From: an uncultured Collinsella sp.
Lineage (GTDB): Bacteria > Actinomycetota > Coriobacteriia > Coriobacteriales > Coriobacteriaceae
Assembly: GCA_934650095.1 (NCBI GenBank)
Contig: CAKUFT010000001.1
Span: forward strand, 43,402-107,401
Reading direction: 5' to 3'
Length of the DNA stretch: 64,000 bases
Below the pieces are notes generated by a model, which saw only the letters and a program-made list of their open reading frames with translations, had not been told where the DNA came from and did not search any database. This document shows, in pieces, positions 1 through 19,337 of this stretch. A program made the translations under genes and the position numbers. Within the stretch, counting starts at the first letter, position 1. Each line of letters starts with the position of its first letter.

Positions 1-249
1 TTCGTTCGCACGCTCACCCGCCTGCCCGTTCGACTGCCCTGCGGGGCGGGGAATCCGGCCTGCTGTGCGGCCTGCAGCCTGTGGCGCCTGTCCGCTAGAT
101 TGTTCGGTCGCCTGTCCGTTCGGACGCATATTCACTCGCACATCCGGCGTCTCGGCAGCGCGCCCATTAGCCGTGTCCGAAGGCCGCTCAGGCACACGCT
201 GGGCCTGCTCCGCATCCCGCCAAGACATGTCGGGCTTAAAGTTCGCCAT
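1..249 (-). CDS. N-terminal part of a Gly/Pro/Gln-rich protein, cut by window edge
   Basis: The visible 83 codons begin with MANFKPDMSWRDAEQAQRVP and continue as a low-complexity stretch rich in Gly, Gln, Arg and Pro, with the tripeptide NGQA recurring. It looks like a disordered cytoplasmic tail or linker; no domain can be named. The start is chosen at an ATG preceded by GAGGAGA at good spacing. It is the last visible member of the leftward operon, 27 bp after the TM/repeat protein, so it may be another component of the kinase/FHA module. The rest lies outside the window. Confidence 0.7.
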   Translation of the reverse strand, partial: MANFKPDMSWRDAEQAQRVPERPSDTANGRAAETPDVRVNMRPNGQATEQSSGQAPQAAGRTAGRIPRPAGQSNGQAGERANE

Positions 250-276
250 ATTGCTTCTCCTCACTTGAGCGCAGCG

Positions 277-1182
277 TTACTGCTGCTCCATGGTGTAGCC
301 GTAGTCGCTACTCACTTTTTGCAAAAATTCGACCATGCCGCTGCTCGTATCGCTGTCATACAAGATCTTGCCGACACAATTGGGCGTAAAAGTGATATTG
401 AAAGCGTCTTCCCTACCCGCGCCGCACAGATCGAGCGTATCGACTCTGCTCTTGATATTCAGGTGCTCGAGGTTCACATCGCCCGACAGGTCAAGCGTCC
501 CAATGCTGCCATCAAGGCCTTCGATCTGCACGTTCGTCAACGAGGACATATTTTTGGCGTTCAAGGTATCGACAGGGCTCGCGAGCCTGTTAATGGCGAT
601 GCGCCGCAGCTGAGGAAATCGCGTGAGATCAACCTGGGGAACCGAACAGTCGCCAATGGACAGACGAGTGATATTGCTAATAAAGCTTATGTCGTAATTT
701 ACGCTGTCGTAGTCGCCGATACCAAGCGTTGCGATGTTGTGGAAGTCGGCCAACAGGGGAAGCGAATCAAACGACTCGATATCGATCGAGGTAGCTTTAT
801 CCGCAGTCTCTTGCGAAATGTTGCCGTCCTCGTCCGCATCGAACGCTAAGTCCGAGCGCAGCGTCTCGTCCGTAATCTCATCGAGCGTGAGCACGGTGGC
901 CTTTTTCGCTTCTTCCTGATGGCGTGCCTCTTTTTCCTTTTTACGCTGAGCGCGCGCTGCCTCCTCTTCTTGCTGTTGCTTGGCCTCGGCGCGTTGCTCG
1001 GTCTGCTGATTGGTATCGGAGATGCCACTTGTAATGGACGTGACCGCCACAATGGCGATGACCACCACCACGGCAAGAACGATCACCACGCGCGGACCGC
1101 CCAAGCGGTTCACGATATCGTTGACATCCGATCCGTTGGACCCGGCGCCCCCGCGGCCAGACCCGTTCTGATTAATTGCCAT
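277..1182 (-). CDS. Single-pass membrane protein with coiled coil and leucine-rich-repeat-like C-terminus
   Basis: The 301-residue protein has a short Gly/Asn-rich N-terminus, one transmembrane segment (about residues 31-50), a charged Gln/Glu/Lys/Ala coiled coil (about 58-97) and a C-terminal part with repeating LxxLxIxxC/N patterns such as LTRLSIGDC and VNLEHLNIK, which suggests an irregular leucine-rich repeat sheet. A DADEDGNIS segment at 115-123 resembles a single calcium-binding loop as seen in dockerin or EF-hand proteins. With no signal peptide beyond the TM helix, the likely topology is a short inner tail and an outer LRR-like domain. It sits 21 bp downstream of the 413-aa membrane protein in the same operon. 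Family not recognised; sensing or scaffolding would be inference. Confidence 0.75.
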   Translation of the reverse strand: MAINQNGSGRGGAGSNGSDVNDIVNRLGGPRVVIVLAVVVVIAIVAVTSITSGISDTNQQTEQRAEAKQQQEEEAARAQRKKEKEARHQEEAKKATVLTLDEITDETLRSDLAFDADEDGNISQETADKATSIDIESFDSLPLLADFHNIATLGIGDYDSVNYDISFISNITRLSIGDCSVPQVDLTRFPQLRRIAINRLASPVDTLNAKNMSSLTNVQIEGLDGSIGTLDLSGDVNLEHLNIKSRVDTLDLCGAGREDAFNITFTPNCVGKILYDSDTSSGMVEFLQKVSSDYGYTMEQQ

Positions 1183-1203: not shown

Positions 1204-2445
1204 CTACAGGCGGTCCTTGTTGAAGTAGTCAGCGTCGCGCCAGTCGCCGCGCCAGCGGTAGGCGTGGGCGTTCTCGCGCGACCAGTCGCTCAGGTGGCGC
1301 AGGATGAAGCGGCTCATGTCGTCCGCGAGCGGCTCGATCGGCCCCACGCGCCGCGCCTCGGCCGCCCGTTCCCAGAACGAGTACGCCATGAGGTAGAACG
1401 TGCCGGCGTCGACGTAGTCGCCCGGGTAGGCGGGGTCGTCGAACCAACCGTGCGTGTCGGGCGTGCCGTTTTGCTCGCACCACTCCGCCACGTTGAGGGC
1501 GAGGCTCATCAGGGTCGTGTAGTCCTGCGGGCCGCCCGCGGCGAGCGCCTCGTGCAGGTTGGACATGGGGCCCTCGGCTCCGTATGCCGGGTAGTACAGG
1601 TCCCAGATCCTCGACGCCGCGTCGTCGGTGAGCTCCATCTGCGAAGGGCGGTCGCCCAGGCCGTCGCCGTAGACGGGCGCGTTGGGGTCCTCCCCCGTGA
1701 AGGCCCCGACGCCGTAGTCGAGCGTGGAGGCGCTGTTGCGGGCGCCGCGGGCGGCGCGGGCCATGGAGCCGAAGACGGAGTAGCCGCTGTGGTAGCCGCG
1801 GACCGTCTCGGTGACGAGCCGGCGCAGGCTGAAGTTCGCGTGCGCACGGTCGCGGGCCTCGCGAGTGGCGGCGGAACCGCGGAAGAAGTACGTGGCGCCG
1901 ATGATCAATTGCTTAATGATCATACTCAAAGGGCCGGCAATGATTTCCGTCACAACTACGAGAAGGCCGATGAATACAACGGCGCCCAAAGCGAATGGAT
2001 TGAATGCGCTATACCCTGGCGCCGGAAGCCCCGTATGCAACACATCGTCTCCGCCAACGTTCAAGTACATGCGGTACCAGACCGAGCAAAGTCCCCAAAC
2101 CGTAAAAATACGCAGCGGGAAATACCGAACAATGGTGGGAATCGCGTCCACGATGCGCGAAAGATTGATGTTAAAGCGAGGGCGATTCGCGCCCTCGTTG
2201 TTAACCGGAGTAGCCGCCTCCGGATCGCCCGGGAGAGGCACGCCGGCGCGGCGCGCACGTAAGCGATCGAGCCGCTCCTGGGCGGAAGAGGCTTGTGTCT
2301 GCGGAGCACCTGCCGAAACACGTGCCCCCGTCGCCTGCCCCGCAGTCGGCACCGCATCCCCCTGCTGATCATCAACGCGAGAGCTATAGAGGCGCGCAAG
2401 TCTCTCCTGCGCCGACATGCCCCCTTGCTGGTTATCGTCTGCCAT
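1204..2445 (-). CDS. Membrane protein of unknown function with duplicated SAQERL motif
   Basis: The 413-residue protein carries two copies of a SAQERLxRL helix motif in its N-terminal cytoplasmic part (residues 11-19 and 54-62), hydrophobic segments at about 109-128 and 150-188, and a soluble C-terminal region of about 220 residues rich in aromatic and acidic residues. The DNA for the C-terminal region (about 1204-1850) is visibly more GC-rich than the DNA for the first half, which suggests a chimeric or recently reassorted gene. It lies between the PH-like small proteins and the TM/LRR protein and is probably co-transcribed with the kinase operon. I do not recognise a family. Confidence 0.75.
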   Translation of the reverse strand: MADDNQQGGMSAQERLARLYSSRVDDQQGDAVPTAGQATGARVSAGAPQTQASSAQERLDRLRARRAGVPLPGDPEAATPVNNEGANRPRFNINLSRIVDAIPTIVRYFPLRIFTVWGLCSVWYRMYLNVGGDDVLHTGLPAPGYSAFNPFALGAVVFIGLLVVVTEIIAGPLSMIIKQLIIGATYFFRGSAATREARDRAHANFSLRRLVTETVRGYHSGYSVFGSMARAARGARNSASTLDYGVGAFTGEDPNAPVYGDGLGDRPSQMELTDDAASRIWDLYYPAYGAEGPMSNLHEALAAGGPQDYTTLMSLALNVAEWCEQNGTPDTHGWFDDPAYPGDYVDAGTFYLMAYSFWERAAEARRVGPIEPLADDMSRFILRHLSDWSRENAHAYRWRGDWRDADYFNKDRL

Positions 2446-2464: not shown

Positions 2465-3076
2465 TTAATAATGGAAGTGTGTCTGGGCATAGCGGTTAAG
2501 CGCATACCCAAACTCCCTGGTCATCGTCTTGATGGTGTGCGTCTCCATCTTTCTGGTCTGAGGATTACGCCGGTTGAAGACAAACGTGGGCATAAACCCG
2601 CTCACTTCCTGGAAACCGCTCAGCGAATTAAAGGGAATGATGATCGGCGGATTGGAATTACCCGGAGCGAAAAGTCTACCCGCCACCGCCTTGCTGTTGC
2701 CTATGCCGGGGACAAGCATCTTGAGCGCGGGGTGACTATCGAGCGTCGAGCCCTCACGCTTGGCGACAATCTCGAGGTGGTTTTCGAAAATCCTGATGGA
2801 GCACGGGCGTCCGTCATACGAGCCCAAGCCCTCATTGATTACCACGTCATTTCGGATTTCACGTTGCGCCATGTTCGAACGAGAACGTGCATTCGTCTGA
2901 GAGCCGCGCTGGGACGCCACGTTCTCAATACCTAACATGTCGTCAAAAGCACCCATGGCACGTCGCTCGGTGCCATGAAGGCCATCGTTTCTCCGCGGCG
3001 CAGCCGAATTGCCGGCATTCGGGCCGGCCCCCGAATAGCCTCCCGGAATCAGCTTACGAAAATTTAAAGATGGCAT
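2465..3076 (-). CDS. Small paralogous protein (MPSLNF...THFHY family), copy 2
   Basis: The 203-residue protein starts at MPSLNFRKL rather than at the ATG 15 bp upstream. The neighbouring paralogue begins MPSLNFKRF, and a GGGGTG ribosome site fits this start. Both proteins have a variable Gly/Ser/Asn-rich middle, then a beta-rich domain, and end in REF(A/G)xA(L/I)xxxAxTHFHY. Alternating short hydrophobic strands followed by one C-terminal helix resemble a PH-like fold, but this is inference. The product has no signal peptide or TM segment and is probably cytoplasmic or recruited to a membrane partner. Adjacent paralogues imply a local tandem duplication. Confidence 0.75.
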
Positions 3077-3759: not shown

Positions 3760-6700
3760 TTACTTAATAAAACATCCGATGAGAAATACCACGGCAATGA
3801 TTGCGCCCACCATTCCGAACGCCTGAAGAACCGTAACGACGCCCCAAAGCAAAAACGCAATGACCAGCGGGCCCAACCAAATCCAAGACCACGACAGTAT
3901 TGACGCAGCGCTGCCAGGATGCTCGTCATCGCCCAGCACGTAAATGCAGATGAGTGCATCAACGGCAATAGCGGAGACTACCTCGATTTTGGCTATCACA
4001 TCACCGTCAATGAACACAGTGCCCATAAATCCAGACGCGCTAATCACGGCCGACGCGATAAGCAGGAGGCGAATTGCCAACCTGCCAAGCCTATCCATAA
4101 CTTCAGGATCGGCGTAGAAGGCCTTGCCTTCGGAGCCAAACGAAAAATCGGCTCCCTGTGCAATCGGAAGATCCTCGTCAACGCCCACCATCGAAAGCTT
4201 TTCCGCTGTAGCGCCTGTGCGGCTATCAAAGTCGACCAACTGAATCAGACGACTTTCAAGAAGATCAGCATTAGCCGCCAAATCGCCGTCGAGTGACTGG
4301 ACGCGGTCAACCGCGGAAAAGGAACGAAGCAGATTCAATGCCAAGAAGCCGAAGATGCCAACAAACGCCGCAACCAAGAACAACACTGCGAGCGGGGCGA
4401 AGGAGCCACACATAACGATGAACTGTCCAAAAGAGCCACGTGCGCATAGGATGGCAACGAAGTAGATTACTGCCACAACGCATGTCCAGCGCAGCACCCG
4501 GCTCTGCTCTTTCTTCACAGCCTCAATACGCGCGGCAGTATCAGCGATGCCCTCAGTCATACTGTAGTCCTGAGTATCCCGTTGGATAGCACCTTCGAGC
4601 GCGCCATCTGCCTCGTTTCGCTCGTCCTCGAGAAATTGAGAATAACTGGCGGAAGGCATCAGGTTCATATGAGCCAAAAGCCTGATTCCGATGCCATCGA
4701 GTAGCTGTTCGTCCGCACCGCCTGCAAGCAGTTCTGCCACATATCCGCGTGGCACTGTCTCTCCTCGCGCCTCGGCACAGAAAAGAGCATTCAACGTAAG
4801 CGGTCGAGTAAGAAGAACGTCCCTCGTCTGCCAGCCATTCACATAGGGAACAGGTGTCACCTCCATGTCGGCACGAAGCTTGCTGCCTTCGATTCGGATA
4901 TTGGACCCCGCTTGCATGAGCGAAGCAACCGATGCTTGCGCCGAAGGAGATAGGCCGCGAAGATTGACGATTGCGGATTCTCCGGCAGAGCCCGGAAGCG
5001 CCTCGTAAAGAGCGGTGTGCTCGGAAAGCCAAATCCAGCCTGCCATATTGCCGTATTTGCGGTAGAACGCACGCACGGGAGCCTTGTTGTCGACGACACG
5101 GTCCATGAAATCGAGTACAACATCAACGTCAATAGACCCGCCACTCTGGGCGTCACCGCGTGCCTTGATAATAGCGTCCATGGAAACGTCTCCTGCAAAG
5201 AGCAGGAAGAACTCATCGACAGCGCGAAACGTCGAGCAAGTGGCAAAAAATGCCCGGGGGTTCCCAATGAGTCTCTTGATCTCTTGCTGGGCCGCAGCGT
5301 GAGTTACCAACTCGTCGAACGTAAGGAAGCCCTTCAATAGGCAGGCGGCAAAATGCGGATCGTCAGAAACAACGGCAAGTTCCTCAATTGCCCTAATATT
5401 CTCGGCAATAGACGCAACCGACTCGTCGTGTTCGCCCTGACGGGAAAGAACGTAGGAGAGAAAGCCCGAGGGGAGCACGCCCATAGACTCGGTGCCGTCA
5501 AGCCCCGACTTCACCGCATAGCGATCGATATCGGTATCAGCCATGGTGGCGATACGTGCCGGAAGATCGTTTTTGCCAGCGCCCAGCGAAACATCTTCGC
5601 CGCGCCACGAAATGATCTTGCCGCCCGACATTTCGTAAATCACACATGCGAGGTTGAAATCGTAATTCGGTTTTTCCCCACCCTTCGCTTTTGCCTCGGT
5701 AATCTGATGAATCTTGGTCTCAAGGTCATTTTCGTTCCATTTACGCATCTGACGCTCGAGCTGCCACTGCTGCATGCGCTGTTTTGCCTCGTCCCAATGA
5801 GACGCGAGCCCGCGAGCGAGCGACACAGGATCGGTATAAAGCCTGCCAACAAATTCATACGGCGCATGGTCACTCTTGAAATCGAAGGTGGGCAGCTGAC
5901 GATAGAAGTGGTCGGGATCAGCGATCCAGTCTTTAATTTCTTCGTATCCGAAGCGCTTGTTTGCAAGCTCAAACGTAAGGCCTTGAAGCAAATTTCCCAA
6001 GGTAGCGTCATCAGGGTGGGTGAACTCAGCAGGTTGACCCGCTTCCTGAAACTCGAAAAACGTGTCGTCCTTCAAACGCTCATAGAGCGGGTGGACATTG
6101 CCCTCGTAAAGAGTCCAAATGGTATAGCCAAACGAATACCAATCGTTGCGAGGGTCGACCATTCTGCCGTGACCAGGCGTATACCCGTTTGATCGCGTCT
6201 CGGTTTTAGTCGTACGATTATCAATTCCGGAAAGAGAACGAGCGGACCCATAGTCGCCAAGTGCGATTTGCTTATCGTACAGGTAGACATTCGACGGTTT
6301 CACATCACGATGAACGATGCCGAACTCGGTGTGAAGTAGGTTAATCGCTTGGCTCAGTTCCGGAATCACGCGACTTTTAACCATATGCTTGCTACGGGGT
6401 CGATCACTGAGGCAAGTAGCCTTAGGAGTGATGGCAATATCCCAAAGCTGAGGAGCTATGGCCCCTACTTCAGTCGCGCTCAAGCCCTGGTGCAAATAGG
6501 CAAAAATAGGCAGCAAATGCGTTTCTGACACGGGACGACCATTGAGGCTCATGACGGCGCGCACAGTCTTCTCGTATTCCGTGCGGTCTTTTTCTATAAG
6601 AGGCCGAAACACCTTGGCAACACATGCGAGGCCGTCATCCACCCGCTCGGCAGCAAAGACCGTGGACTGACCACCATGACCGACAACTTGGCCCAGGTGA

Positions 6701-7248
6701 ACAATAAACTGCTGGCCATCATGCGAGGTAATCGTCACATCTTCTGGAACGAAGGGAGATGCGGGCACGGAGGAAGCGGCGCGAACGTTCCCACGAGAAA
6801 CAGTCACCGTTTCGCCATTAGGATTTGCCGCCGCACCGCGTGGGACCGTTATCGTTTGACCGTCAGAAGCGACAGATCGCGGCACCGTTACGGTCTCGCC
6901 CGCCACGGACGTCACCGGCCGGGAAACCGTGACCGTCTCGCCGACAGCGGGAGCAGCCATCGGCCTTACAACCGTAACGGTCTCGCCACCAGTCGCAGAA
7001 ACCGGATGACTTACCGTCACCGTCTCGCCTGCCGACGGGGCGTCGCCGCGGCGGATGGTCACCGTTTCGCCGGACACCGGAGCAGCACCTCGGCGCACCG
7101 TCACGGTCTCACCCGGCACAGGAGCCTGATTGCCGTGATACACGGTGACCGTTTCACCGTTTACGGGTACGTCCCCACGGCGGACCGTCACGGTTTCATC
7201 ATTGCCGGTGCCGCCATCTCGGTGTACCGTTATCGTCTCATCAGACAT
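3760..7248 (-). CDS. Giant membrane Ser/Thr protein kinase with N-terminal ETVTV repeat tail
   Basis: This 1162-residue Hanks-type kinase phosphorylates Ser/Thr on proteins. Residues 3-152 hold eleven copies of (D/G)(E/Q)T(V/I)T(V/I), then comes the kinase domain (about 176-450): glycine loop VGHGGQSTV (189-197), lysine 212, catalytic HRDVKPSN (313-320) and metal-binding DYG (332-334) in place of DFG. A long, mostly helical middle follows, with hydrophobic pairs near 890-950 and again in the last 110 residues, so the kinase tail is membrane-anchored. The start is 2 bp from the PP2C stop, indicating translational coupling of kinase and phosphatase. The repeated threonines, each with Val/Ile three residues after the first Thr, look like phospho-Thr docking sites for the FHA proteins of this island (inference). 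Confidence 0.93.
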   Translation of the reverse strand: MSDETITVHRDGGTGNDETVTVRRGDVPVNGETVTVYHGNQAPVPGETVTVRRGAAPVSGETVTIRRGDAPSAGETVTVSHPVSATGGETVTVVRPMAAPAVGETVTVSRPVTSVAGETVTVPRSVASDGQTITVPRGAAANPNGETVTVSRGNVRAASSVPASPFVPEDVTITSHDGQQFIVHLGQVVGHGGQSTVFAAERVDDGLACVAKVFRPLIEKDRTEYEKTVRAVMSLNGRPVSETHLLPIFAYLHQGLSATEVGAIAPQLWDIAITPKATCLSDRPRSKHMVKSRVIPELSQAINLLHTEFGIVHRDVKPSNVYLYDKQIALGDYGSARSLSGIDNRTTKTETRSNGYTPGHGRMVDPRNDWYSFGYTIWTLYEGNVHPLYERLKDDTFFEFQEAGQPAEFTHPDDATLGNLLQGLTFELANKRFGYEEIKDWIADPDHFYRQLPTFDFKSDHAPYEFVGRLYTDPVSLARGLASHWDEAKQRMQQWQLERQMRKWNENDLETKIHQITEAKAKGGEKPNYDFNLACVIYEMSGGKIISWRGEDVSLGAGKNDLPARIATMADTDIDRYAVKSGLDGTESMGVLPSGFLSYVLSRQGEHDESVASIAENIRAIEELAVVSDDPHFAACLLKGFLTFDELVTHAAAQQEIKRLIGNPRAFFATCSTFRAVDEFFLLFAGDVSMDAIIKARGDAQSGGSIDVDVVLDFMDRVVDNKAPVRAFYRKYGNMAGWIWLSEHTALYEALPGSAGESAIVNLRGLSPSAQASVASLMQAGSNIRIEGSKLRADMEVTPVPYVNGWQTRDVLLTRPLTLNALFCAEARGETVPRGYVAELLAGGADEQLLDGIGIRLLAHMNLMPSASYSQFLEDERNEADGALEGAIQRDTQDYSMTEGIADTAARIEAVKKEQSRVLRWTCVVAVIYFVAILCARGSFGQFIVMCGSFAPLAVLFLVAAFVGIFGFLALNLLRSFSAVDRVQSLDGDLAANADLLESRLIQLVDFDSRTGATAEKLSMVGVDEDLPIAQGADFSFGSEGKAFYADPEVMDRLGRLAIRLLLIASAVISASGFMGTVFIDGDVIAKIEVVSAIAVDALICIYVLGDDEHPGSAASILSWSWIWLGPLVIAFLLWGVVTVLQAFGMVGAIIAVVFLIGCFIK
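6793..7242 (-). repeat. Tandem degenerate repeat encoding eleven ETVTV units
   Basis: The 5' end of the giant kinase gene is a degenerate tandem repeat of roughly 42-51 bp. Each unit encodes GETVTV followed by a basic or proline-rich spacer of 8-12 residues. Synonymous and spacer changes are common while the six-residue core is held, which indicates selection on the peptide rather than recent slippage. Confidence 0.9.
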
Positions 7249-7250
7249 CT

Positions 7251-8018
7251 TTATTCCCCTATCTCAATCACGATCAGCGTCGCGTCATCCGTCGAACCGT
7301 TCATGCGGGCCTCGGCATACAGCTCCTCGCACAGCTGCGCACAGGTCGAATCGCTCGCAAGCATCTGCTGCAGGCGCGCAAGGTCAATCTCCCCATCGAT
7401 GCCATCAGAGCAGATTAAGTAGCGATCGCCCGGAAACAACGTGGTCGTATTGATCTCTAAGTTTCGTCCGCCTTGATTAAGACCGACCGCCAGCTCAATG
7501 CAATGCGAGACCGACTCATCGCTGTACTCAAAACCAACGCCGCCCAGACGGGATTCGGGCGTATGGTCGTAGCTCAATACCGCAAGTACGCCATCGCGCA
7601 AGCGATACACACGCGAATCGCCAGCATTAAAGATTGCGGCAGACCCATCATGTGCCACCATAAGCCCGGCAACCGTGGATGCGGCAACGGGCAGGCCATA
7701 ACGGGCCGCATAGGACTCAACATCGTTCTCAGCGCGCTCGCCCGCCATACGCAAACGATCCTGCAGGACATCAATCGAATCGGCTCCAAAAACCTGAGTC
7801 GTCTGCGCAAACGCCTGAGCAGCGAGCGTCGAGGCTGCCGCTCCGTGCCCGCCTTCGCTCACGCCGTCAAAGACTGCCATGCAGCCCATCTCGCGCTCGC
7901 AATCGCCTACCAGGCCATAGCAAAGGACGTTACCGTCAAGAAGCAAACGGTCCTCGTTGACGGGGTGATTGGTTCCCGCTTGAGTTTTTGCTGCAGCGAT
8001 AAACTTCGTCATCGCCAA
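7251..8018 (-). CDS. PP2C-family Ser/Thr protein phosphatase
   Basis: The 255-residue protein is a compact bacterial PPM/PP2C phosphatase: NEDR at 21-24, FDGVSEGGHG from residue 50, GDSR at 133-136, SDG at 204-206 and the C-terminal DDAT at 244-247 supply the usual metal-binding aspartates. It has no membrane segment and should be cytoplasmic, removing phosphate from pThr/pSer made by the kinases of this island. It overlaps the end of the Clp-type ATPase gene by 10 bp and abuts the giant kinase gene, a classic kinase/phosphatase pair. Confidence 0.95.
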   Translation of the reverse strand: MAMTKFIAAAKTQAGTNHPVNEDRLLLDGNVLCYGLVGDCEREMGCMAVFDGVSEGGHGAAASTLAAQAFAQTTQVFGADSIDVLQDRLRMAGERAENDVESYAARYGLPVAASTVAGLMVAHDGSAAIFNAGDSRVYRLRDGVLAVLSYDHTPESRLGGVGFEYSDESVSHCIELAVGLNQGGRNLEINTTTLFPGDRYLICSDGIDGEIDLARLQQMLASDSTCAQLCEELYAEARMNGSTDDATLIVIEIGE

Positions 8019-9967: not shown

Positions 9968-10564
9968 TTATACCTCCTTGGCGGGATATTCGTGGTGGTA
10001 TCGGTTAGCAATGCCGACGGTGTTAACAATGCCGTCTTGGACAAAGTTCTGAAGCTGACGAGGCTGCTGAAGATACTGGTCGTAGTCATCGTGTGGACGG
10101 TCGCTCAGATAGATCACGCGCTGGTTAGTCGAGCCGCGCAGCGCGCAGTCGGGCACGTTGAGCTCATCTACGTACGGACCGTCAATCAGCACATCGATGA
10201 GGGGCTTGAGCGTCTCCCACACGTCTGCGCCGATCGCTCGCGGCAGTTCTTCGAGCGTAAAGCCGGTGTAAACGAGAATGTCATCGTAAGCACCGCGGAT
10301 TGTTGCCAGCAGCTTCGCGAGCTCTGATGCCTGCTCGAGCGGATCTCCACCCGAAACCGTCAGTCGATGCACGCCATGTTCGTGCGCCGTATCGAGCAAC
10401 ATCTGCGCAAGCTCACCAACATCGACATCCTGCTCGGGCAACTGCATCCTAAGCTCGGGCGAGATGCATCCGGCGCAGCGCTTAGAACAACCGCTAGTCC
10501 AGATTGCGATGCGCTCGCCTGGCCCCAGGGAAACGACAGGCGCGAACATCTGGCTAACGAACAT
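9968..10564 (-). CDS. Small radical SAM protein, NrdG-like activase fold
   Basis: The 198-residue protein has the radical SAM cluster motif CSKRCAGC (Cys 26, 30, 33) and an SGGDP motif at 71-75, as in anaerobic ribonucleotide reductase activases and related glycyl-radical activators; it would bind one 4Fe-4S cluster and SAM. The reading frame continues upstream into the FHA gene, but the start is set at the ATG overlapping the FHA stop by 11 bp, which has GAGGA at good spacing. No nrdD or other glycyl radical enzyme lies nearby, so its target is unknown. Overlap with the FHA gene and 3-bp spacing to the ATPase gene make it a true member of the signalling operon. Confidence 0.85.
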   Translation of the reverse strand: MFVSQMFAPVVSLGPGERIAIWTSGCSKRCAGCISPELRMQLPEQDVDVGELAQMLLDTAHEHGVHRLTVSGGDPLEQASELAKLLATIRGAYDDILVYTGFTLEELPRAIGADVWETLKPLIDVLIDGPYVDELNVPDCALRGSTNQRVIYLSDRPHDDYDQYLQQPRQLQNFVQDGIVNTVGIANRYHHEYPAKEV

Positions 10565-11636: not shown

Positions 11637-13169
11637 TTACCTCATTTCCCTTTGCTTGAGCTGACTTGCTTGACGGCGATTACGCAGGCGACGCTCCGCA
11701 TCTGCGGAAGGCGTGGGCGGCACGTAATCGTGCGGATGGATCTCGACGGCGGCAGCAGGATTCGCGGCCTGCGTGGTCAATCCTGCACCCTCGGCCGGAA
11801 CGGTTACGCCATAGGCTTTAAGATCCTCTTCGAACTGTTTGTAGAAGTCGCAGAACTCAATCTGGTCCCTATAGACCTTCTCGACAGTCGCTTGATCCTG
11901 CGGCTTCATGTCCTTGATGATGGTCGGATTATCAGGATCCTCAGAAAACTCCTCGGGGTTGGCTGCGACAACGCGGATGATGAGTCGATCTCTTTTCGTG
12001 CTGCGCAAAAGGGCGATGGCCTTGTTCTGCTTGGTGTCAAACATCAATCGCCAGGGCTTTCCCGAACCCTCCATAACGGCATAGCGTGTAACGTTAATAC
12101 CGCGAGCAGCCATGACCTCGTTGATAGAACGCTCGATATAGTCGTCTTTCATAGCATTGGCAAGGGCAGCCTCCGCTTCATCGTTTGCAGCATAGACATC
12201 TTCGATCTCGTGCAATTGCTTAAGTGGCAGACTCTTTCCGTAACGGTTGTTGGCGCGTTCGATGCGCGCACGATACTCTTCATAGACTCGGTGCCGTTCG
12301 CTCGATTCATACGTAGCGTTTTTTACTACGTATTCAAAATCATTCATCATCTTCATCGCCGCTAGGCGATCATCGACGCGCGAATTAGGCCCAAGTGCAT
12401 CAAAAGCGGCGCGAACGCTCTCAAACTTTGCAGAGATACGGTTACGAAGGGAAATATCGAGCGCTTCGTCCTGCATAAGCGGCGTAACACGTCCCGCCCA
12501 AGTCTCAAACGCGCGAGCCGCTTCTTCGAGCGACCCTTCCTCTTGTTTAGTTGTTGATTCGGTAAGGTAACGGAGTGCCTTCTTCAGGTCCACTCCGCCG
12601 CCGGGACCAACAACATAATTCGTAATTTCCGCGACATGCTGAGCGCGAAGCCGCTCAGCAGTCTGGATGGCCTCAAGTTGAGCTTGCGACTGCTGAACGA
12701 ACTGCTCTCTATGCGCTTCCGAAACCGTTGTGGGCAGCAGGGCGCTAATCTCCCCGAGCAGAGCCGGAATCTTAGCGCGAACCGTTTCGGCATAACGCAT
12801 GTTTACCGCTTGCATTCCACTGGGCATATTGCCCAATGCCTCTTGGGAAAAAGCCTCGATACGAGCGTTGATCAACCGATCAAAATATGCCGAAACCGAA
12901 CCATCGGTGTCTTCAATCTTAGAAAGTGCTTTGGCTTTTATCCCAGCTAGAGAGCTCTTATATGACTGAATGGCCGCTTCAACGCGCTCCCGCTCCAAGG
13001 CTATGGCCGTCTCAACGCGCTCCCGCTCCAAGGCCCTGGCTGCCTCAGCGCGCTCCCGCTCCCGGTCTTCGCTCCGCTGTGCCCAAACAAACTCATCCTG
13101 CTCTCGCGTGGTCATCTTGTTCCACTGTTCCCGCGTGATTCCATATGATGCGCTGAATGAATAGCTCAT
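11637..13169 (-). CDS. Coiled-coil protein of unknown function, first gene of the leftward operon
   Basis: The 510-residue protein starts at MSYSFSASYG, chosen because AGGGGAACGAT precedes the ATG; an upstream in-frame ATG lies beyond the operator region. Residues about 20-70 are a charged coiled coil with three near-identical ALERERVE-type repeats, visible also in the DNA around 12970-13060. The rest is mostly helical with Arg/Glu/Ala heptads and a compact C-terminal region containing a beta segment (MEGSGKPWRLMFD) and a disordered tail. No TM segment or catalytic motif is visible. As first gene of the FHA/PP2C/kinase/Clp operon it may be a structural or phosphorylated client protein (inference). 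Confidence 0.8.
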   Translation of the reverse strand: MSYSFSASYGITREQWNKMTTREQDEFVWAQRSEDRERERAEAARALERERVETAIALERERVEAAIQSYKSSLAGIKAKALSKIEDTDGSVSAYFDRLINARIEAFSQEALGNMPSGMQAVNMRYAETVRAKIPALLGEISALLPTTVSEAHREQFVQQSQAQLEAIQTAERLRAQHVAEITNYVVGPGGGVDLKKALRYLTESTTKQEEGSLEEAARAFETWAGRVTPLMQDEALDISLRNRISAKFESVRAAFDALGPNSRVDDRLAAMKMMNDFEYVVKNATYESSERHRVYEEYRARIERANNRYGKSLPLKQLHEIEDVYAANDEAEAALANAMKDDYIERSINEVMAARGINVTRYAVMEGSGKPWRLMFDTKQNKAIALLRSTKRDRLIIRVVAANPEEFSEDPDNPTIIKDMKPQDQATVEKVYRDQIEFCDFYKQFEEDLKAYGVTVPAEGAGLTTQAANPAAAVEIHPHDYVPPTPSADAERRLRNRRQASQLKQREMR

Positions 13170-13228
13170 ATCGTTCCCCTGATTGCCGACTTTAATTGAC
13201 CTATTTCTACCGCCGCTTTGCGCGATTC

Positions 13229-13240
13229 TGTTGCGCAACA
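13229..13240. promoter_or_regulatory. Perfect palindrome TGTTGCGCAACA, candidate operator site 1
   Basis: An exact 12-bp palindrome 59 bp upstream of the leftward operon start, paired with a second exact copy 35 bp away. The pair lies in the 160-bp divergent promoter region, the expected place for a shared regulator. Confidence 0.75.
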
Positions 13241-13263
13241 TTGGCGAGTGGCAGATTTGTCGA

Positions 13264-13275
13264 TGTTGCGCAACA
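13264..13275. promoter_or_regulatory. Perfect palindrome TGTTGCGCAACA, candidate operator site 2
   Basis: Second exact copy, 54 bp upstream of the rightward kinase ATG at 13330. A centre-to-centre distance of 35 bp would allow two dimers on one DNA region to cooperate. Confidence 0.75.
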
Positions 13276-13329
13276 GAAGACGGCACTCAACGCATATCCT
13301 GCTAATGGAAGAAAGGATGAAAGCGCGCC

Positions 13330-14577
13330 ATGACCGGATCCTACGAAGAAGTTCGACTCGTCAAATTTCATACGCCAGCACTGCTCTCCGAGCGTGAGCA
13401 GGCTGCGGCACGGCGTCGCTTTTGCACGCTTCTCGTTCCGCCGCAAAAGGGCGGCTTTGGCGGCAACGCTTATGTCCGCCGCGTCCAGAGCGGCGATCGC
13501 GCTTTTGAGCTCGCGCTTAAGATGCCGCGCCCCGATGCCCAGCCCGAGCAAGAACAGCTCAACCGGGAAACCCTAGAGGAGGAATATCGCACCCTTTCCG
13601 TCGTATCCAATCTAAGGGGTTTTCCCGATGTCTATGGTTTTGGCTACACGGCAGACGGAACCCCGGCGCTGCTTATGGAATGGGTTGACGGCGTCTCGCT
13701 TCTTGATGCACGGCCAGCCCTGAGCGATGGCGCTGAAACCTGCCCCGGCGATACCGTCGCCGCGCTGGGCCTGAGCGTACTCAAGATCATCTTGTCCACG
13801 CAATCGCTCGACACGCCCTTTGTCCACCGCGACCTCTCCATGCGCAACATCATGCTGCGTCACGATCGCATCCCGCTCGAGGAGCAGGTGTCGAGCGGCT
13901 ATTTTGACATCTGCCTGATCGATATGGGCAGTGCCAAGCTCGTTAAACCGGACTTTTCCTTTACCGTCGACGTCAACGCTTTTCGCGGCGCCACGCCGGC
14001 ATACGCGGCACCCGAAATGCTGGAGCGGTTTAAGGCCGACCCCGGTGCACGTGACAATCCCGCCGTCGACATCTATGCGCTGGGAAGCATCCTCTACGAG
14101 CTTTATTGCGGACACGCGCCCTTTGAGGCAGAGCTCAGACGCTCTGGAGACCACGCGCGCCTCAAGCGCACCGTGCAGTCGCAATCCCTTTCGCCCACAA
14201 CTCCCCGCGAGCAGGGCTTGGTCAACGCGATTATGGCTTGTTTGGCAGTCTCGCAAGACGCACGCCCTTCGGCAAATGAACTCGCGGCGCGCCTTGAGCC
14301 TTTCGCCCGTACGGGTGCTCCGCGAAAGCGCCGGCCTGTGGCGGATCGCGGCAGCGCTGCCGCCTTGGTGGACGTCACCGTCCCCATCCGCACGGTTGCA
14401 CAGGCGCAGCCCGCGTCTCGGCCAACCCCATCCACCGAGACCGTCCGCAGCGCCGAGTCCATGCGTCGCGCGCGCCTTGCTGTCAAACGTCAACGCACGA
14501 TGGCACTCACGATGGTGATCGTCGCCTTTGTGGTGATAGTGGTTATACTCGCCATCGCATCCGCCGGCATGCTTTAG
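13330..14577 (+). CDS. Membrane-anchored Ser/Thr protein kinase (PASTA-less)
   Basis: This 415-residue Hanks-type kinase has a glycine loop GGFGGNAYV (41-49), lysine 64, catalytic HRDLSMRN (166-173), DMG (198-200) in place of DFG, and an APE motif at 227-229. A Pro/Arg-rich linker leads to a single C-terminal TM helix (about 389-413), so it is a tail-anchored cytoplasmic kinase with almost no outer domain. It shares the unusual LRGFPxVYGxG segment with the kinase at 17253, so the two are paralogues. It is transcribed divergently from the FHA/PP2C operon across the twin operator. Substrates unknown; the FHA and zinc-ribbon neighbours are obvious candidates. Confidence 0.93.
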   Translation: MTGSYEEVRLVKFHTPALLSEREQAAARRRFCTLLVPPQKGGFGGNAYVRRVQSGDRAFELALKMPRPDAQPEQEQLNRETLEEEYRTLSVVSNLRGFPDVYGFGYTADGTPALLMEWVDGVSLLDARPALSDGAETCPGDTVAALGLSVLKIILSTQSLDTPFVHRDLSMRNIMLRHDRIPLEEQVSSGYFDICLIDMGSAKLVKPDFSFTVDVNAFRGATPAYAAPEMLERFKADPGARDNPAVDIYALGSILYELYCGHAPFEAELRRSGDHARLKRTVQSQSLSPTTPREQGLVNAIMACLAVSQDARPSANELAARLEPFARTGAPRKRRPVADRGSAAALVDVTVPIRTVAQAQPASRPTPSTETVRSAESMRRARLAVKRQRTMALTMVIVAFVVIVVILAIASAGML

Positions 14578-14693: not shown

Positions 14694-15938
14694 CTAGGAG
14701 ATCAAAAGCTCAAAGGAATCCGTAATGCGCGTTCCCATGTTAACGGCACCGTCCCCCGATTCGACCGTGGTATTCAGGTAGTACTTGCCGTTCTTCTTTT
14801 TTGGCACACCCGCTACCGTAAGGTCGCAGCCTTCCTCCTCGACGGGAAGCGAGAACTCAAAGCCCTTGTTCCTGACAAACGTTCCGGTGACGTCCGTATA
14901 GGTGCGATAGACATCACCATCGGACTGGGAGACGGTTTTTTCGGCGTTATAGGTATCGTGCGCATGCAGTGTGGCGGAAATATCCGCGACCGCTTCGCCG
15001 GAATCGCTGATGCTCTTAAAAACGATCACGAGGTCGTTTTTGCTCGCGCCGTAGCAAGTATGGCCCCAAGAGTTGCCCGTCTCCTTAAGCGCTCCCCGCC
15101 ACGTGGTGTTGGCAAAGCTCGTGGGCTTATCGATGTTGAGCTTCGCTGTGCTACCAGAGGTCGTGGTGGTCGACGAGGTCGCATTGCCCGTCGTGGAAGA
15201 GCCCTCGGCATCGGAGCTGGCGTCCTCGCCGTTCTTGCTTGCGGTCTTGAGCTCCGCCTTAGCATCCTTTAGATCTGCCTTGGTCTGGTCGAGATCGTCT
15301 TGCGTCTTTTTGAGCTCGTCCTTGGAAGATTCAAGCTGCTCCTTGAGCTTTTGGATCTGCTCGGTGTTTTGCGGATGGGCCAAACCATATGAGTAGCCCG
15401 CCCAGCCGGTTCCCGCGCACAAGGCGGCAACGACAATAACGCCGGCGGCGATGGCGGGCGCATACGACTTGCCCAGGCGCTTGCGCGCCAGCTTGTACTC
15501 GGCCTTGGCCGTCTTGAGGCTCTCGCGGTCCTGCTCGAGCTGCTCTTCCTCACTGAGCGGCGTAGAACCAAAATCGGCATGGTAGGCAGACTCAGTTTCC
15601 GCGTCCTCGATCGTAGTGCCAAAGTCTGACAGGGAATCGACTACACGCGTGGCGTCCGAATCGGATTCGGGCACAGCGAGCTCAGACGCGCCGGGTGCCG
15701 TCACCGGCTGCTCGTCTGCTTTCGAGGCAGCATCCGCCTTAGGCAACTCCACCGTTGCCGCCGTAGCGGCCTCGCCGTCGCGCCAAGAAAAGGCAGGGCT
15801 CTGCGACACGGTCTGGGGCGTAGTATAGGGATCTTCGGGGACGGGCGCAGTCGGCGAGGGCGTGGCAAGAGGCGATCCACACTCAGAGCAAAAACTAGCG
15901 TCATCGGGCAATAATGCACCGCAATAAGGGCATTCCAT
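14694..15938 (-). CDS. Zinc-ribbon membrane protein with extracytoplasmic coiled coil
   Basis: The 414-residue protein has an N-terminal zinc ribbon (Cys 3, 6, 17, 20), a disordered acidic/Pro-rich linker, a short amphipathic helix, one TM segment (about 159-187), a coiled coil (about 193-236) with KxDL repeats, a Ser/Thr linker and a C-terminal beta-rich domain (about 265-414). The ATG at 15938 is preceded by GAGAGG, and the zinc ribbon begins right after it. The zinc ribbon should be cytoplasmic and the C-terminal domain outside. It is divergent from the FHA gene at 16119 with a candidate operator between them, which marks it as part of the phospho-signalling module. Confidence 0.82.
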   Translation of the reverse strand: MECPYCGALLPDDASFCSECGSPLATPSPTAPVPEDPYTTPQTVSQSPAFSWRDGEAATAATVELPKADAASKADEQPVTAPGASELAVPESDSDATRVVDSLSDFGTTIEDAETESAYHADFGSTPLSEEEQLEQDRESLKTAKAEYKLARKRLGKSYAPAIAAGVIVVAALCAGTGWAGYSYGLAHPQNTEQIQKLKEQLESSKDELKKTQDDLDQTKADLKDAKAELKTASKNGEDASSDAEGSSTTGNATSSTTTTSGSTAKLNIDKPTSFANTTWRGALKETGNSWGHTCYGASKNDLVIVFKSISDSGEAVADISATLHAHDTYNAEKTVSQSDGDVYRTYTDVTGTFVRNKGFEFSLPVEEEGCDLTVAGVPKKKNGKYYLNTTVESGDGAVNMGTRITDSFELLIS

Positions 15939-16118: not shown

Positions 16119-17081
16119 ATGGCGGCGGAAACACCGTGCTCGGTCCTCTACAACGACATCCGATCGTTCGGCGGTCTCAAGCATCTCGAGATTGCGCGAA
16201 TGCTCATTAACGGCAATTCGTATGCAGGCAGTACCCTGCTCGACAAATGCTCTACCAACCGCTCGTACCTCACTCGCTACATCGTCCACCGCGAGCCCGA
16301 TCAGTGTGCGCCAGGTATCTACAATGACCTTACCGTCTCCACACTCAACCTTGCCGCCGCCATTAGCAACAAACTCGGCGGAGGCGAACGCGCCTATCAG
16401 GAAATATCCGAGCATTACAGCGGCCCGGCGGCCCAAGGCATGATGTCGATTCTCGCAGATTATGACCTTGACGACCGCCTCTACGCCAATGCCTTGGGGC
16501 GTATCAACAGCTCCGATGACCACAACCCCCGCGAAAAAAGCACGCTCTTCTTGATGCTCTTTGTGGCAACGGGTGCACTTGCCGATCCCGTTCAAGGCGT
16601 GGCCACCGTCGAGCGCTTTTGCGACAGCAAGACGGGCGGGCACTTTGGCACCACCGAAACTACCGTCGGACGTGGCTTTATGGGCAGCCTGGAGCAGCCG
16701 CGCACCGTCGCCCCCAACCTCGGTCTGCTCAGGACACATGCCGACAACTGCGTCGACATGCAAATCCATTCCCTCACACGCGATCCGCGCGGCACCGTGA
16801 TTGGTTCTTTGCCCAAAACCTCGCCCAGCATCACCGATGTGGGCGCCGACGCATCGCGCGAGCATCTTCGCATTTGGCTTGAGGGCGAGCACTGGTACGC
16901 CCAGGGCCTTGGATCGACCAACGGCACAGTGCTCGAATCGGGCGCGGGCGACGGCGATATTGTGATTGAGCCGCCGCGCGACCAACGCGAGCCCGGCAAG
17001 ATCTATCCCCCGGTGGAAATCGAAAACAGCGACAGGCTCCATCTGGGTCTCTACACGACATTCCTTGTCATTGTGGATTAG
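16119..17081 (+). CDS. FHA-domain protein with novel helical N-terminal domain
   Basis: The 320-residue cytoplasmic protein carries a C-terminal FHA domain (about 218-320) with SREH at 246-249 and GSTNGT at 265-270, the residues that hold phosphothreonine. The first 200 residues are helical and match nothing I know; they contain a TTETT segment (178-182) like the phosphorylated TETTS of the mycobacterial FHA protein GarA. The start is the ATG after GGGGAGG; in-frame upstream ATGs lie across the operator. It is followed 171 bp downstream by a membrane kinase, so a kinase/FHA-reader pair is likely. Confidence 0.88.
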   Translation: MAAETPCSVLYNDIRSFGGLKHLEIARMLINGNSYAGSTLLDKCSTNRSYLTRYIVHREPDQCAPGIYNDLTVSTLNLAAAISNKLGGGERAYQEISEHYSGPAAQGMMSILADYDLDDRLYANALGRINSSDDHNPREKSTLFLMLFVATGALADPVQGVATVERFCDSKTGGHFGTTETTVGRGFMGSLEQPRTVAPNLGLLRTHADNCVDMQIHSLTRDPRGTVIGSLPKTSPSITDVGADASREHLRIWLEGEHWYAQGLGSTNGTVLESGAGDGDIVIEPPRDQREPGKIYPPVEIENSDRLHLGLYTTFLVIVD

Positions 17082-17252
17082 CGCGGGCGGTGATCGAAAG
17101 ACGGTCACCGCCCGTCTTTCGTCTTCTACCTTCTGCGTCGTAACCGACAATACTCAACGGCATACGTCGGCAGTGCGGCTATCATGGTGCTTTACCAATA
17201 GCCGCACTGCCGACGCATACGCGCGGCAACCCATGCCAGACAAAGGAACGCC

Positions 17253-19337
17253 ATGGATACTACCGATAGCGCCTATGGCGACAAACTCATCCGTCTCGAC
17301 ACGTTCGATACCGCCGTGGCAGTCGACCCCAGTGCCGAGGACGACGCCAAGCGCCGGTTTATGACGCTTATTCTTCAGACGGCATACCGCGACGGCGGCA
17401 ATATCGGGCACGTGCTGCGCGCGACCAACACGAGCGGCGAGGTCTTTGCCGTCAAGCTGCTCAAGGACAACACCATCCTTTCCGGCCAGACGTCCGATCG
17501 CTCTGCCGAGCAAGCGGCTGCGCACCTGGCCAGCACCGCCGCGCTGTTCGAGGAGTACCGTCATCTGTGTACCGTCTCGCACCTGCGCGGATTTCCGCGC
17601 GTCTATGGCTACGGATCGTGCGAGGATGACCCGCTCATCCTCATGGAGTGGGTCGAGGGTACCTCGCTCAAGCAGGCGCTGCCCCTGCTTCCGCACGACG
17701 CCTCGGGCGGGCTGACCACCCAGATGGTCGCCGCCGTCGGAAACGCCGTGCTACGCGCGCTCTTGATGACCCAAGGCCTCGTGAATCCGGTCGTCCATCG
17801 CGACCTGTCGCCTGCCAATATCATGTTCCGCACCACCAGCCGAACGCTCGAGCAGCAGATCGCCGATTGCTCCTTTGACCCCTGCCTCATCGACATGGGC
17901 TCCGCGACCATGGCACTCGGCGACGACACGATCACCCGACGTGCCGACATTTGGCGCTTTGCCACACCCGCATATGCCGCGCCCGAGATGCTCACACAGG
18001 ATATCGAAGGCATCGCGGCCCTTCGCCGCTCGCCCGCGATCGACGTCTATGCGCTTTCGAGCATTCTGTACCAGCTCTACAGCGGTCGTAAGCCGTTCGA
18101 CATCGAGTCGACGGGTGCCGCGGCAACCGGCTCGTTCTACCTCATAAAGACCAAGACCAAGCCGGCACCGCTCAAGCCGCGCTGCGAGGACGATGAAGCG
18201 CTCGTCCAGATCATCATGAAAGGCATCTCGGTCGAACAGGGCGATCGCCCTACCGAGCAGCAGATGCTCGAGGTGCTCTCGGCATACCTCCCCGCTGCAG
18301 AATCTGAGGGCCGCGAGGGCGCAGGAGACGAGGCCGCAATTGATATCGATTCTGGCACGCACCTTAAGGTCGACGTCGCCGGCGAGCGCGCGCGAGAGAT
18401 CCTGGAGCAGGCCCGGCACGATGCCATGACCCGCCGCCGCTTTATTATCGGTGGCGTCGTTGCAGCCGTTGCGGGGCTCAGCGTCATTGGGGCGGCGACC
18501 CATGGCTTTGGCATCCCCGACTACCTGGACGGCATCCGCGGTTCGCTTGACGACTACACTTGGGATCAGCTGCAGGAGATTTCGCTCAAGATTAAGGCCG
18601 CCGAGACCCGTAGCGAGGCACGCGAGATTGCCAAGCGCTACCACCTGCTCGATGCCGATGGGCATATCCCCTATCCGTGTACCAAGCGCGTGAAACTCAC
18701 CAACGGGCTGGAGGTCGGCGCGCAGCTTGTGGGCATCCGTCACGATGAGCTTCTGGACGGGACGGGCAAGGCCGGGCTGACGTTTATGTTCGATGCGGGT
18801 ATTGCCGAGCGCAACGCTGCGGCTGAACCGCCGAGCGCCGGCTGGGCAGATTGCGAGCTGCGGGAATGGCTCGACAGCGACGGCCTTAAGCTGCTGCCCA
18901 ACGAGTTGCGCGCGCTTATTAAGGCCGTCAAGAAGACCTCGAACAACGTGGGCGTCGCCAGAAGCGCTTCGTGTCTGAGTGAGCTGCCCGCGACGCTCTG
19001 GCTGCCCGCCATGGTCGAGCTGTGCGGCGTGCAGCCGCCCGATTCGTTTGCCGAGGACTATCACTACCTGGCAGACATCTACAACGGCGAAGGCAAGGAG
19101 TATCAGCTGTTCCACGAGCTTAAGGTGAGCCCATATTCCACCAACTCGACCATGGTGCGCCAGTGGAAGGGCAAGGACACCTGCTGGTGGGAGCGCACGG
19201 TGAGTCCCGACACGTCGGAGGAAAAGGGCACGGTCTATATCAACCGTGTCGGCGACGACGGCGACGTGTTTATGTACGCCACGCCCGCGAGCAAACCGGA
19301 CAAGCGGACCTGCGTGATCCCCGGGTTCTGTATTTAG
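17253..19337 (+). CDS. Transmembrane Ser/Thr kinase with DUF6273-like outer domain
   Basis: The 694-residue protein has an N-terminal kinase domain with lysine 68, HRDLSPAN (182-189), DMG (214-216) in place of DFG and APE (243-245). A linker and one TM helix (about 396-418) precede an extracytoplasmic region; residues about 475-694, with WADCELREWL and CWWERT motifs, resemble the DUF6273 surface domain found in Firmicutes and Coriobacteriia, which probably senses an external ligand. AAAGGA precedes the ATG. It is a paralogue of the kinase at 13330 through the shared LRGFPxVYGxG segment, but with a real sensor domain. The domain name is from memory and less certain than the kinase call. Confidence 0.9.
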   Translation: MDTTDSAYGDKLIRLDTFDTAVAVDPSAEDDAKRRFMTLILQTAYRDGGNIGHVLRATNTSGEVFAVKLLKDNTILSGQTSDRSAEQAAAHLASTAALFEEYRHLCTVSHLRGFPRVYGYGSCEDDPLILMEWVEGTSLKQALPLLPHDASGGLTTQMVAAVGNAVLRALLMTQGLVNPVVHRDLSPANIMFRTTSRTLEQQIADCSFDPCLIDMGSATMALGDDTITRRADIWRFATPAYAAPEMLTQDIEGIAALRRSPAIDVYALSSILYQLYSGRKPFDIESTGAAATGSFYLIKTKTKPAPLKPRCEDDEALVQIIMKGISVEQGDRPTEQQMLEVLSAYLPAAESEGREGAGDEAAIDIDSGTHLKVDVAGERAREILEQARHDAMTRRRFIIGGVVAAVAGLSVIGAATHGFGIPDYLDGIRGSLDDYTWDQLQEISLKIKAAETRSEAREIAKRYHLLDADGHIPYPCTKRVKLTNGLEVGAQLVGIRHDELLDGTGKAGLTFMFDAGIAERNAAAEPPSAGWADCELREWLDSDGLKLLPNELRALIKAVKKTSNNVGVARSASCLSELPATLWLPAMVELCGVQPPDSFAEDYHYLADIYNGEGKEYQLFHELKVSPYSTNSTMVRQWKGKDTCWWERTVSPDTSEEKGTVYINRVGDDGDVFMYATPASKPDKRTCVIPGFCI

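Follow-up and report, generated by a model that had tools for sequence, protein, structure and literature searches.

A conserved gene cluster in Collinsella combining an Hsp100-like ATPase, an NrdG-like radical SAM enzyme and phosphothreonine signalling proteins

In the threonine-phosphorylation pathway of type VI secretion systems (T6SSs) a kinase, a PP2C phosphatase, an FHA protein and the ATPase ClpV are encoded in one cluster. The TerY-P triad, which occurs on mobile islands, combines kinase and PP2C phospho-signalling with the vWA protein TerY. The first 19,337 nucleotides of a 64,000-nucleotide stretch of DNA from an uncultured Collinsella sp. (contig CAKUFT010000001.1, positions 43,402 to 107,401; the whole stretch is called the window) encode a gene cluster that has features of both. 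It shares with the T6SS pathway the kinase, the PP2C, the FHA protein and the Clp-type ATPase, and with TerY-P the kinase and PP2C genes on a mobile island. In contrast to the T6SS pathway, no sheath parts were seen, the ATPase misses the ClpV model (TIGR03345, NCBIfam; 218.3 bits, 884.95 needed), and a radical S-adenosylmethionine (SAM) enzyme and a coiled-coil protein, J, are additional. TerY-P differs by its vWA protein: in a count starting at the left edge of the window, Pfam found no vWA family among the 14 proteins A-N, which include an Hsp100 and a radical SAM protein instead.

According to Kaur et al. 2020 (PMC7159879), some FtsH ternary systems include a radical SAM protein that stands alone and is presumed to modify a peptide effector, and some GTPase systems come with kinase/PP2C/vWA genes. 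The MoxR-vWA systems and the other chaperone-thresholded conflict systems treated there likewise place an AAA+ chaperone as a regulated switch beside variable effector genes. The cluster in the window has a ClpB-type AAA+ protein rather than MoxR or FtsH and no vWA domain, and it has an FHA protein, a multi-threonine kinase tail and an NrdG-type radical SAM gene beside the ATPase gene.

The frames between 277 and 19337 were translated. The Pfam scan covered 18 proteins of the window and the NCBIfam scan proteins A-J; a PADLOC scan was also made. Pfam identified three Hanks-type kinases (E, Pkinase 7e-13; K, 9e-18; N, 4e-18), one PP2C phosphatase (F), two FHA proteins (I and M), one Clp-like AAA+ ATPase (G) and one small radical SAM protein (H). 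The zinc ribbon of L scored above the Pfam cut-off; that of I scored below it, yet its four cysteines are invariant in a 12-row alignment. By eye, the kinase motifs Lys, HRD and DYG/DMG look intact in E, K and N, as do the FHA motifs in I and those for metal binding in F. This is the parts list that the original prediction, made from the sequence alone, had given, and its view of an island built around the ATPase and the radical SAM enzyme, with phospho-control as the theme and distinct from T6SS and TerY-P, was borne out.

Recurrence of a six-gene core

Judged by gene order and profile matches, six genes form a conserved unit. Their order in the window is J, zinc-ribbon/FHA protein (I), radical SAM enzyme (H), Hsp100-like ATPase (G), PP2C (F) and kinase (E). 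In this or a rotated order the core recurs in Coriobacteriia, Clostridia, Bacilli, Fibrobacterota and Cloacimonadota. Of the 145 stretches in the genome collection that an ATPase pattern (alignment A2) matched, 137 code for relatives; the 80 best loci were retained. On the strand of the ATPase gene these 80 loci carry the radical SAM gene in 47 cases, the FHA gene in 46, J and the kinase in 42 each and PP2C in 33. The adjacent pairs were FHA-radical SAM (42), J-FHA (40), ATPase-PP2C (33), radical SAM-ATPase (31), kinase-J (16) and PP2C-kinase (16). With unassigned intervening genes ignored, the complete window order was found in ten loci including the Collinsella locus L001, and the rotated order kinase-J-FHA-radical SAM-ATPase-PP2C-DUF4236-type protein in eight; many loci are cut by contig ends. 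The profile families were grown from the neighbourhood clusters and rebuilt without L001. The resulting hidden Markov models (HMMs) still recognise the window proteins E (4.8e-85), G (4.1e-203), H (1.2e-75), I (3.1e-23) and J (5.4e-21).

Among 291 genomes of the class of genome G003 the ATPase profile was found in eight (six full-length) and the J profile in six, and five genomes had both (hypergeometric p 2e-8 for the eight ATPase hits, 2e-9 for the six full-length ones). In the only genome with J alone (G060) the J match lies 926 bases from the contig start; one genome (G181) has a full-length ATPase and no J match. The association of the core genes is more than chance: other genomes, too, carry them together, and five of the six J-positive genomes among the 291 have the ATPase. 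The original prediction had named in advance lack of conservation in related genomes, or identity with a known named system on addition of the left flank, as the findings that would speak against it; the gene set is conserved beyond Collinsella, and within the bounds of the window it matched no named system.

An ATPase tree of 79 rows was built by a quick method, and the program flagged several long branches. Loci that have a radical SAM or FHA gene, 47 in all, are spread over all deep branches. The rows closest to the window are other Coriobacteriia, followed by one locus each from Fibrimonadales, Oscillospiraceae and Cloacimonadota, an order that departs from taxonomy. One clade of 23 rows holds none of the 47: 14 of its loci are of the noRSAM class and nine show too little context; a further noRSAM locus (L076) lies elsewhere. 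DUF4236 relatives are present in 14 of the 15 noRSAM loci, and a true PP2C (phmmer or motif) in two. This clade had at one stage been taken for an 'ATPase + PP2C only' form. That assignment was dropped, as the PP2C profile had been contaminated by DUF4236-type proteins; the sequences showed mostly a DUF4236-type partner, and the counts were redone. The value that this profile had given for PP2C in the comparison without L001 was set aside. Several of its members (L025, L032, L033, L037 and relatives) look like a derived two-gene form with no FHA or radical SAM gene in view.

Features of the core proteins

The ATPase G (651 residues; AAA_2, 173.8 bits in Pfam) matches ClpB and ClpC in the PDB, and its second ring (D2) is ClpB-like. 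In the ATPase family the D2 motifs are kept almost throughout (Walker A 78/78, Walker B 77/78, GYVGY pore loop 78/78). No member (0/78) has a P-loop in the N-terminal half, although this region aligns with the first ring (D1) in the PDB matches. By these motifs the first ring of G is dead, and the second is live and carries a pore loop of the substrate-threading type. ClpB and ClpC share with G the tandem AAA+ fold and the intact D2 with its pore loop, whereas G is shorter, belongs to a family lacking the D1 P-loop in 78 of 78 members and matched no Clp N-terminal domain in Pfam. It also stayed below the Pfam cut-off for bpMoxR (18.8 bits, 27 needed). In E. coli genomes no site covered 80% of the Moellerella query, and the matches listed fall in genes of ClpB or other Clp ATPases. 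In the viral contigs a single ATPase relative turned up, at 24% identity; no further family was detected in the 9.3 kb covered.

NrdG is the closest named NCBIfam family of the radical SAM protein H, which scored 89.9 bits against the model TIGR02491 (126.1 needed). In Pfam, H matched Fer4_12 with 98.3 bits (22 needed) and fell just short of PF04055 (28.1 bits, 29.5 needed). A weak match to the HxsC model (E 2e-4, NCBIfam) was also seen. Of the 51 open reading frames (ORFs) of the family, 50 preserve the motifs CX3CX2C and GG[DE]; the 51 come from 48 loci, a few being extra radical SAM genes of the same locus. In a 17-row alignment reaching from Coriobacteriia to Proteobacteria the three cysteines and two glycines are invariant. 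Of the 24 genomes that carry the unit, 19 have an NrdD match and five have none, some of the genomes being drafts; a separate NrdG above cut-off is present in 17, a count subject to the same draft incompleteness. The sub-cut-off NrdG score, the kept motifs and these NrdD and NrdG counts suggest that H is probably a specialised NrdG derivative.

The N-terminus of kinase E is a tail of 189 residues with 11 copies of [EQ]T[VI]T[VI]. Kinase tails of other loci carry different threonine-based repeats, e.g. KTSALPNMSENV, KTEYMPV, KATEVDEGWR and ATxINP. Threonine accounts for 8.4% of residues in the tails, against 4.7% in the remainder. The repeats were compared with shuffled tails; one of the 42 rows had no tail and was skipped, and the tails of the window and L001, which are near copies, were both counted. 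In 16 of 41 tails (18 of 41 in a first run) no more than 5 of 500 shuffles reached the observed repeats, against 0 of 41 for stretches of equal length beyond the kinase domain; at the level of 25 in 500 shuffles, 24 tails passed. Because the tail differs between lineages yet is repetitive within one protein, it would suit multivalent FHA docking, and the FHA protein encoded in the operon could plausibly dock there. Both the FHA protein I and the phosphatase F stayed well below the cut-offs of named models (TagH, 30.5 bits, 120.25 needed; Stp1/IreP, 78 bits, 230 needed; NCBIfam).

The coiled-coil body of J is poorly conserved; in its C-terminal domain Gly357, Cys440 and Leu450 are invariant (39 aligned rows; residues counted from the second start of the window J). 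The AlphaFold2 model consists of long helices with a helix-sheet-helix end (pLDDT 75), and the J-profile matches in the PDB look like generic coiled coils. A C-terminal pattern in common, with an invariant cysteine, had raised the suspicion that J is homologous to the third protein encoded in the Proteobacterial loci (alignment A5). This candidate relationship was not supported: the hhalign probability was only 0.2-0.3%, and the best hmmsearch score of the J C-terminal profile was 5.9 bits, in another region. A post-hoc pattern was found, in its strict form, in 20 of 42 J-family proteins, three of five A5 proteins and none of 3680 other ORFs (29, 3 and 5 in the loose form); having been tuned on both families, it serves as a lead only.

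Plasmid-borne versions and possible function

The ATPase and radical SAM genes are direct neighbours in ten of the 11 plasmid loci examined; the radical SAM gene lies downstream in nine and upstream in Aristaeella lactis. The exception, a plasmid of the cyanobacterium Geminocystis (L091), has a split form in which the radical SAM gene is ~9 kb upstream of the ATPase gene with a J-family gene in between, 0.8 kb upstream. Five annotated plasmid loci (Polaromonas, Leisingera, Photobacterium, Moellerella and Acinetobacter) share the gene order 'AAA domain' protein, PIN-domain protein, hypothetical protein, ATPase, radical SAM protein ('4Fe-4S single cluster'). In Moellerella, the only one of the five that was scanned, Pfam assigned the first protein to the AAA_11/AAA_12 type of superfamily 1 helicases and the second to PIN_4. 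A Rhizobium locus (L086) encodes the ATPase, the radical SAM protein and a 2086-residue protein matching PADLOC kinase models as well as the PDC-S37 and Hhe helicase models. Two unannotated loci, from Rhizobium (L089) and Caballeronia (L090), show by profile the same three proteins as L086; another Rhizobium locus (L093) has a short radical SAM ORF after the ATPase. The A. lactis plasmid version, which is annotated, comprises a DUF4011 helicase with an MTES_1575 nuclease domain, a kinase, J, FHA, radical SAM, ATPase and phosphatase genes, a DUF6273 protein and a second kinase. DUF4011-type helicases, always on the same strand, accompany 11 of the 47 radical SAM/FHA-positive loci, compared with one of the 15 noRSAM loci; anywhere in the genome, DUF4011 occurs in 29 of the 291 genomes of the class. 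Among the helicases that neighbour the pair on plasmids, those of L088 and L086 match the PADLOC profiles of Mokosh (MkoA) and of the candidates PDC-S37 and Hhe. These are helicase families, and no PADLOC match spans the ATPase-radical SAM pair. None of the Pfam, NCBIfam and PADLOC scans gave a match naming the gene set, and literature searches found no description of it, a weak absence since coverage of subscription papers was thin.

The composition of the cluster, its conservation and its patchy and plasmid-borne distribution are firm. Our favoured reading, to which we give an even chance, is that the cluster is a horizontally acquired, phosphothreonine-gated device for protein remodelling; phospho-gated remodelling by the Hsp100 is likely, and the role is probably in conflict/defence or stress. 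In response to a trigger the kinase would phosphorylate the threonine tail. The FHA adaptor would dock on the phosphorylated tail through several contacts and bring J and the ATPase, whose motor would then pull on or remodel a client, either J itself or an effector bound to J. The radical SAM gene often touches the ATPase or the FHA gene, and its product may modify the same client, the invariant cysteine of J being a candidate site. PP2C would reset the system. An inducible conflict response, directed against mobile elements, or a response to severe stress would be the most likely role, because the module is patchy and, in other phyla, plasmid-borne and joined to helicase and nuclease-type genes. 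The Proteobacterial plasmid pair adjoins helicase-type genes and, in five loci, PIN genes, which were invisible in the window alone, and this shifts the likely role towards conflict or defence. A more specific version would be a new kind of immune-like switch in bacteria. Here the fast-diverging phosphothreonine tail and the FHA adaptor would recruit the Hsp100 with its dead D1, and the motor would present J, or its Proteobacterial counterpart, to a dedicated NrdG-derived radical SAM enzyme for covalent arming at a single invariant cysteine, thereby licensing an attached helicase-nuclease or other effector. We regard this version as unlikely.

Several observations weigh against the favoured reading. 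Sixteen of the 47 radical SAM/FHA-positive loci, some cut by contig ends, showed no PP2C, and the DUF4011 helicase accompanies only the minority given above. None of the 18 window proteins matched a helicase or nuclease family above the Pfam cut-off. In PADLOC-DB 2.0.0 (systems described by 2023) there were only partial kinase, AAA and helicase matches and no complete named system, and the phage collection contained no ATPase relative. As many as 17 of the 41 kinase tails failed even the more lenient shuffle level. The fold search with the J model gave nothing credible (best E 0.2), and the J family and the third Proteobacterial protein have no detectable homology.

The main competing explanation is an envelope or proteotoxic stress system without a conflict role, in which a specialised disaggregase would be informed of surface stress by the kinase and FHA protein through membrane kinases. 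Membrane segments seen by eye in the window proteins E, K, A, B and L, the ClpB-like D2 and DnaK-like genes (by eye) in the same slot of another Collinsella genome would fit it. We nevertheless find it rather doubtful, since a radical SAM enzyme would be unexpected there, A-D were seen only in Collinsella, and patchy spread and plasmid carriage with helicase or PIN genes would be unusual for a housekeeping stress system. The original prediction had also suggested a machine at the membrane. This part did not hold: among the 80 loci phmmer related A-D only to L001, which makes them local additions and leaves the membrane parts outside the core, the kinases of other loci lying beyond this membrane check. 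Its interpretation is thus partly supported, as a conserved set that is neither T6SS nor TerY-P. It seems quite unlikely that the cluster is the regulatory island of a secretion device, in which phospho-control and the Clp ATPase would disassemble or energise an apparatus of the T6SS or type VII (T7SS) kind. Kinase/PP2C/FHA sets do govern T6SSs, I weakly matches TagH, and FtsK/SpoIIIE-type proteins occur in 3 of the 47 radical SAM/FHA-positive loci (L022, L023 and L028), of which L022 also encodes small helical proteins that look WXG100-like by eye; two of these were scanned and gave no Pfam match. However, the ClpV score is low, no sheath, Hcp or VgrG family was found among the 18 scanned proteins (from the left window edge onwards), and FtsK partners are rare, none adjoining the annotated Proteobacterial pairs and one lying ~12 kb off in L083.

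The radical SAM enzyme itself invites two further explanations. It could mature a peptide, with the ATPase and kinase parts controlling export or activity, as in a system for ribosomally synthesised and post-translationally modified peptides (RiPPs). The weak HxsC match would agree with this, as would extra radical SAM maturase-like genes upstream of the core in L063, L070 and L018 (with a Pfam Radical_SAM match at 2530-3639 of L063) and, in the 2530-6358 region of L063, a short His/Ser-repeat protein that by eye resembles a His-Xaa-Ser RiPP precursor. No precursor-like gene was noticed by eye in the window, however, and the conserved radical SAM protein is of the short NrdG type, so that a RiPP-like system is very improbable. 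We give hardly any credence to H being an ordinary activase of class III ribonucleotide reductase that lies here by chance. NrdG is its closest named family and most unit-bearing genomes have an NrdD match, but the score is below cut-off, the gene adjoins the ATPase or FHA gene across phyla, and the separate NrdG genes and the genomes without NrdD, some of them drafts, speak against it.

The gene set, carried here by a gut bacterium, joins protein unfolding, radical chemistry and phosphothreonine signalling, in a form that is mobile, spans several phyla and is nameless in the libraries and literature searched. It would offer a dedicated partner for an NrdG-like enzyme, and its diverging repeat tail a tractable example of FHA docking that may be multivalent. 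Should the versions on plasmids confer protection, they would represent a new bacterial defence architecture with a threshold set by a chaperone motor.

Layout of the window and probable insertion site

Genes A-J form a single co-directional run, transcribed in the order J, I, H, G, F, E, D, C, B, A with intergenic gaps of -11 to +69 bp (Table 1). K diverges from J, L converges with K, and both lie outside this operon; an operon comprising most of the genes, as originally proposed, thus stands for A-J only, M and N being genes of the host slot. The left edge of the window cuts the cluster. The start sites of H (~10564), J (~13169), C (3076), L (~15938) and M (~16119) were chosen by eye.

Table 1. 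Coordinates of genes and other features in the first part of the window
Feature	Position	Strand	Evidence
A' start, paralogue of A (transmembrane segment; leucine-rich-like repeats by eye)	1..264	-	matches L001 13760-14839; phmmer link to A 1e-29
A, membrane anchor, coiled coil, leucine-rich-like C-terminus (by eye); accessory	277..1182	-	phmmer: L001 sole match among 80 loci
B, membrane protein (by eye); accessory	1204..2445	-	no Pfam/NCBIfam family; L001 sole match among 80 loci
C, small protein, PH-like by eye, paralogue of D	2465..3076	-	Pfam, phmmer
D, paralogue of C; one gene only at this place in L001	3146..3745	-	phmmer
E, Hanks kinase, N-terminal repeat tail, C-terminal membrane segments by eye; core	3760..7248	-	Pkinase 7e-13
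F, PP2C phosphatase; core	7251..8018	-	PP2C_2 1.4e-8, above cut-off
G, Hsp100/Clp-like ATPase, degenerate D1 and intact D2 by motif; core	8009..9964	-	AAA_2 4e-51
H, NrdG-like radical SAM enzyme, CX3CX2C; core	9968..10564	-	Fer4_12 5.8e-28
I, zinc-ribbon/FHA adaptor; core	10554..11633	-	FHA 1.2e-6; alignment A4
J, coiled-coil protein, conserved C-terminal domain, invariant Cys440; core	11637..13169	-	family HMM 5.4e-21; alignment A3
Intergenic stretch separating K from the divergent J operon; presumed to hold a promoter	13170..13329	.	coordinates
K, second Hanks kinase, membrane segment by eye, diverges from operon; island accessory	13330..14577	+	Pkinase 8.9e-18; present in L001
L, zinc-ribbon coiled-coil protein, membrane segment by eye; probable island accessory	14694..15938	-	Zn_Ribbon_1 6e-8; L001 stops short of L
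M, FHA protein; host-slot gene outside the insertion	16119..17081 (frame 15957-17081)	+	86-87% protein identity near CopA in L109-L112
N, fusion of a Hanks kinase and DUF6273; host-slot gene outside the insertion	17253..19337	+	Pkinase, DUF6273; 91-94% protein identity, 6/10 flanks

The flanking gene CopA (23735-26077) is present in all 43 Collinsella genomes, whereas the ATPase was found in only one of the 43, that of L001, which is 93-94% identical to the window at the DNA level. Ten Collinsella flanks were compared. Four of them (L109-L112) have M and N beside CopA without A-J or L; L108 retains N and a diverged M-like FHA stretch, L113 retains N, and L107 and L114-L116 have neither. In none of the six flanks with N are A-J or L present. 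K matched only the N region (37-39%), and L had no match in the ten flanks. M and N are present at the site in relatives without the cluster and are therefore not part of the insertion; the best reading is that the core was inserted to the left of M. The unit is thus smaller than the 1-19337 span originally proposed. GC content (58% vs 61%) provides no strong argument for an insertion.

To the left of M and N, L109 has a DEAD-box-helicase-like gene (by eye). In L108 (genome G010) the same slot holds a different cluster (1904-13874) with two DnaK-like proteins (by eye), zinc-ribbon proteins and membrane proteins. With these identities assigned by eye, the slot is perhaps a hotspot where Hsp100- and Hsp70-type islands are swapped. 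Between N and CopA the window encodes a large coiled-coil protein (19807-23154) in which Pfam finds a CAP domain and which by eye has an LPTTG-like anchor at its C-terminus; its gene has no long DNA match in the ten flanks. Among the other loci, a VTT-like membrane protein (by eye) is encoded in L022, L023, L028, L052 and L057. Extra genes separate the radical SAM and ATPase genes in L027, L036 and L045; the insert in L036 is a BspA-type leucine-rich repeat protein (Pfam), and A and A' of the window also look leucine-rich by eye.

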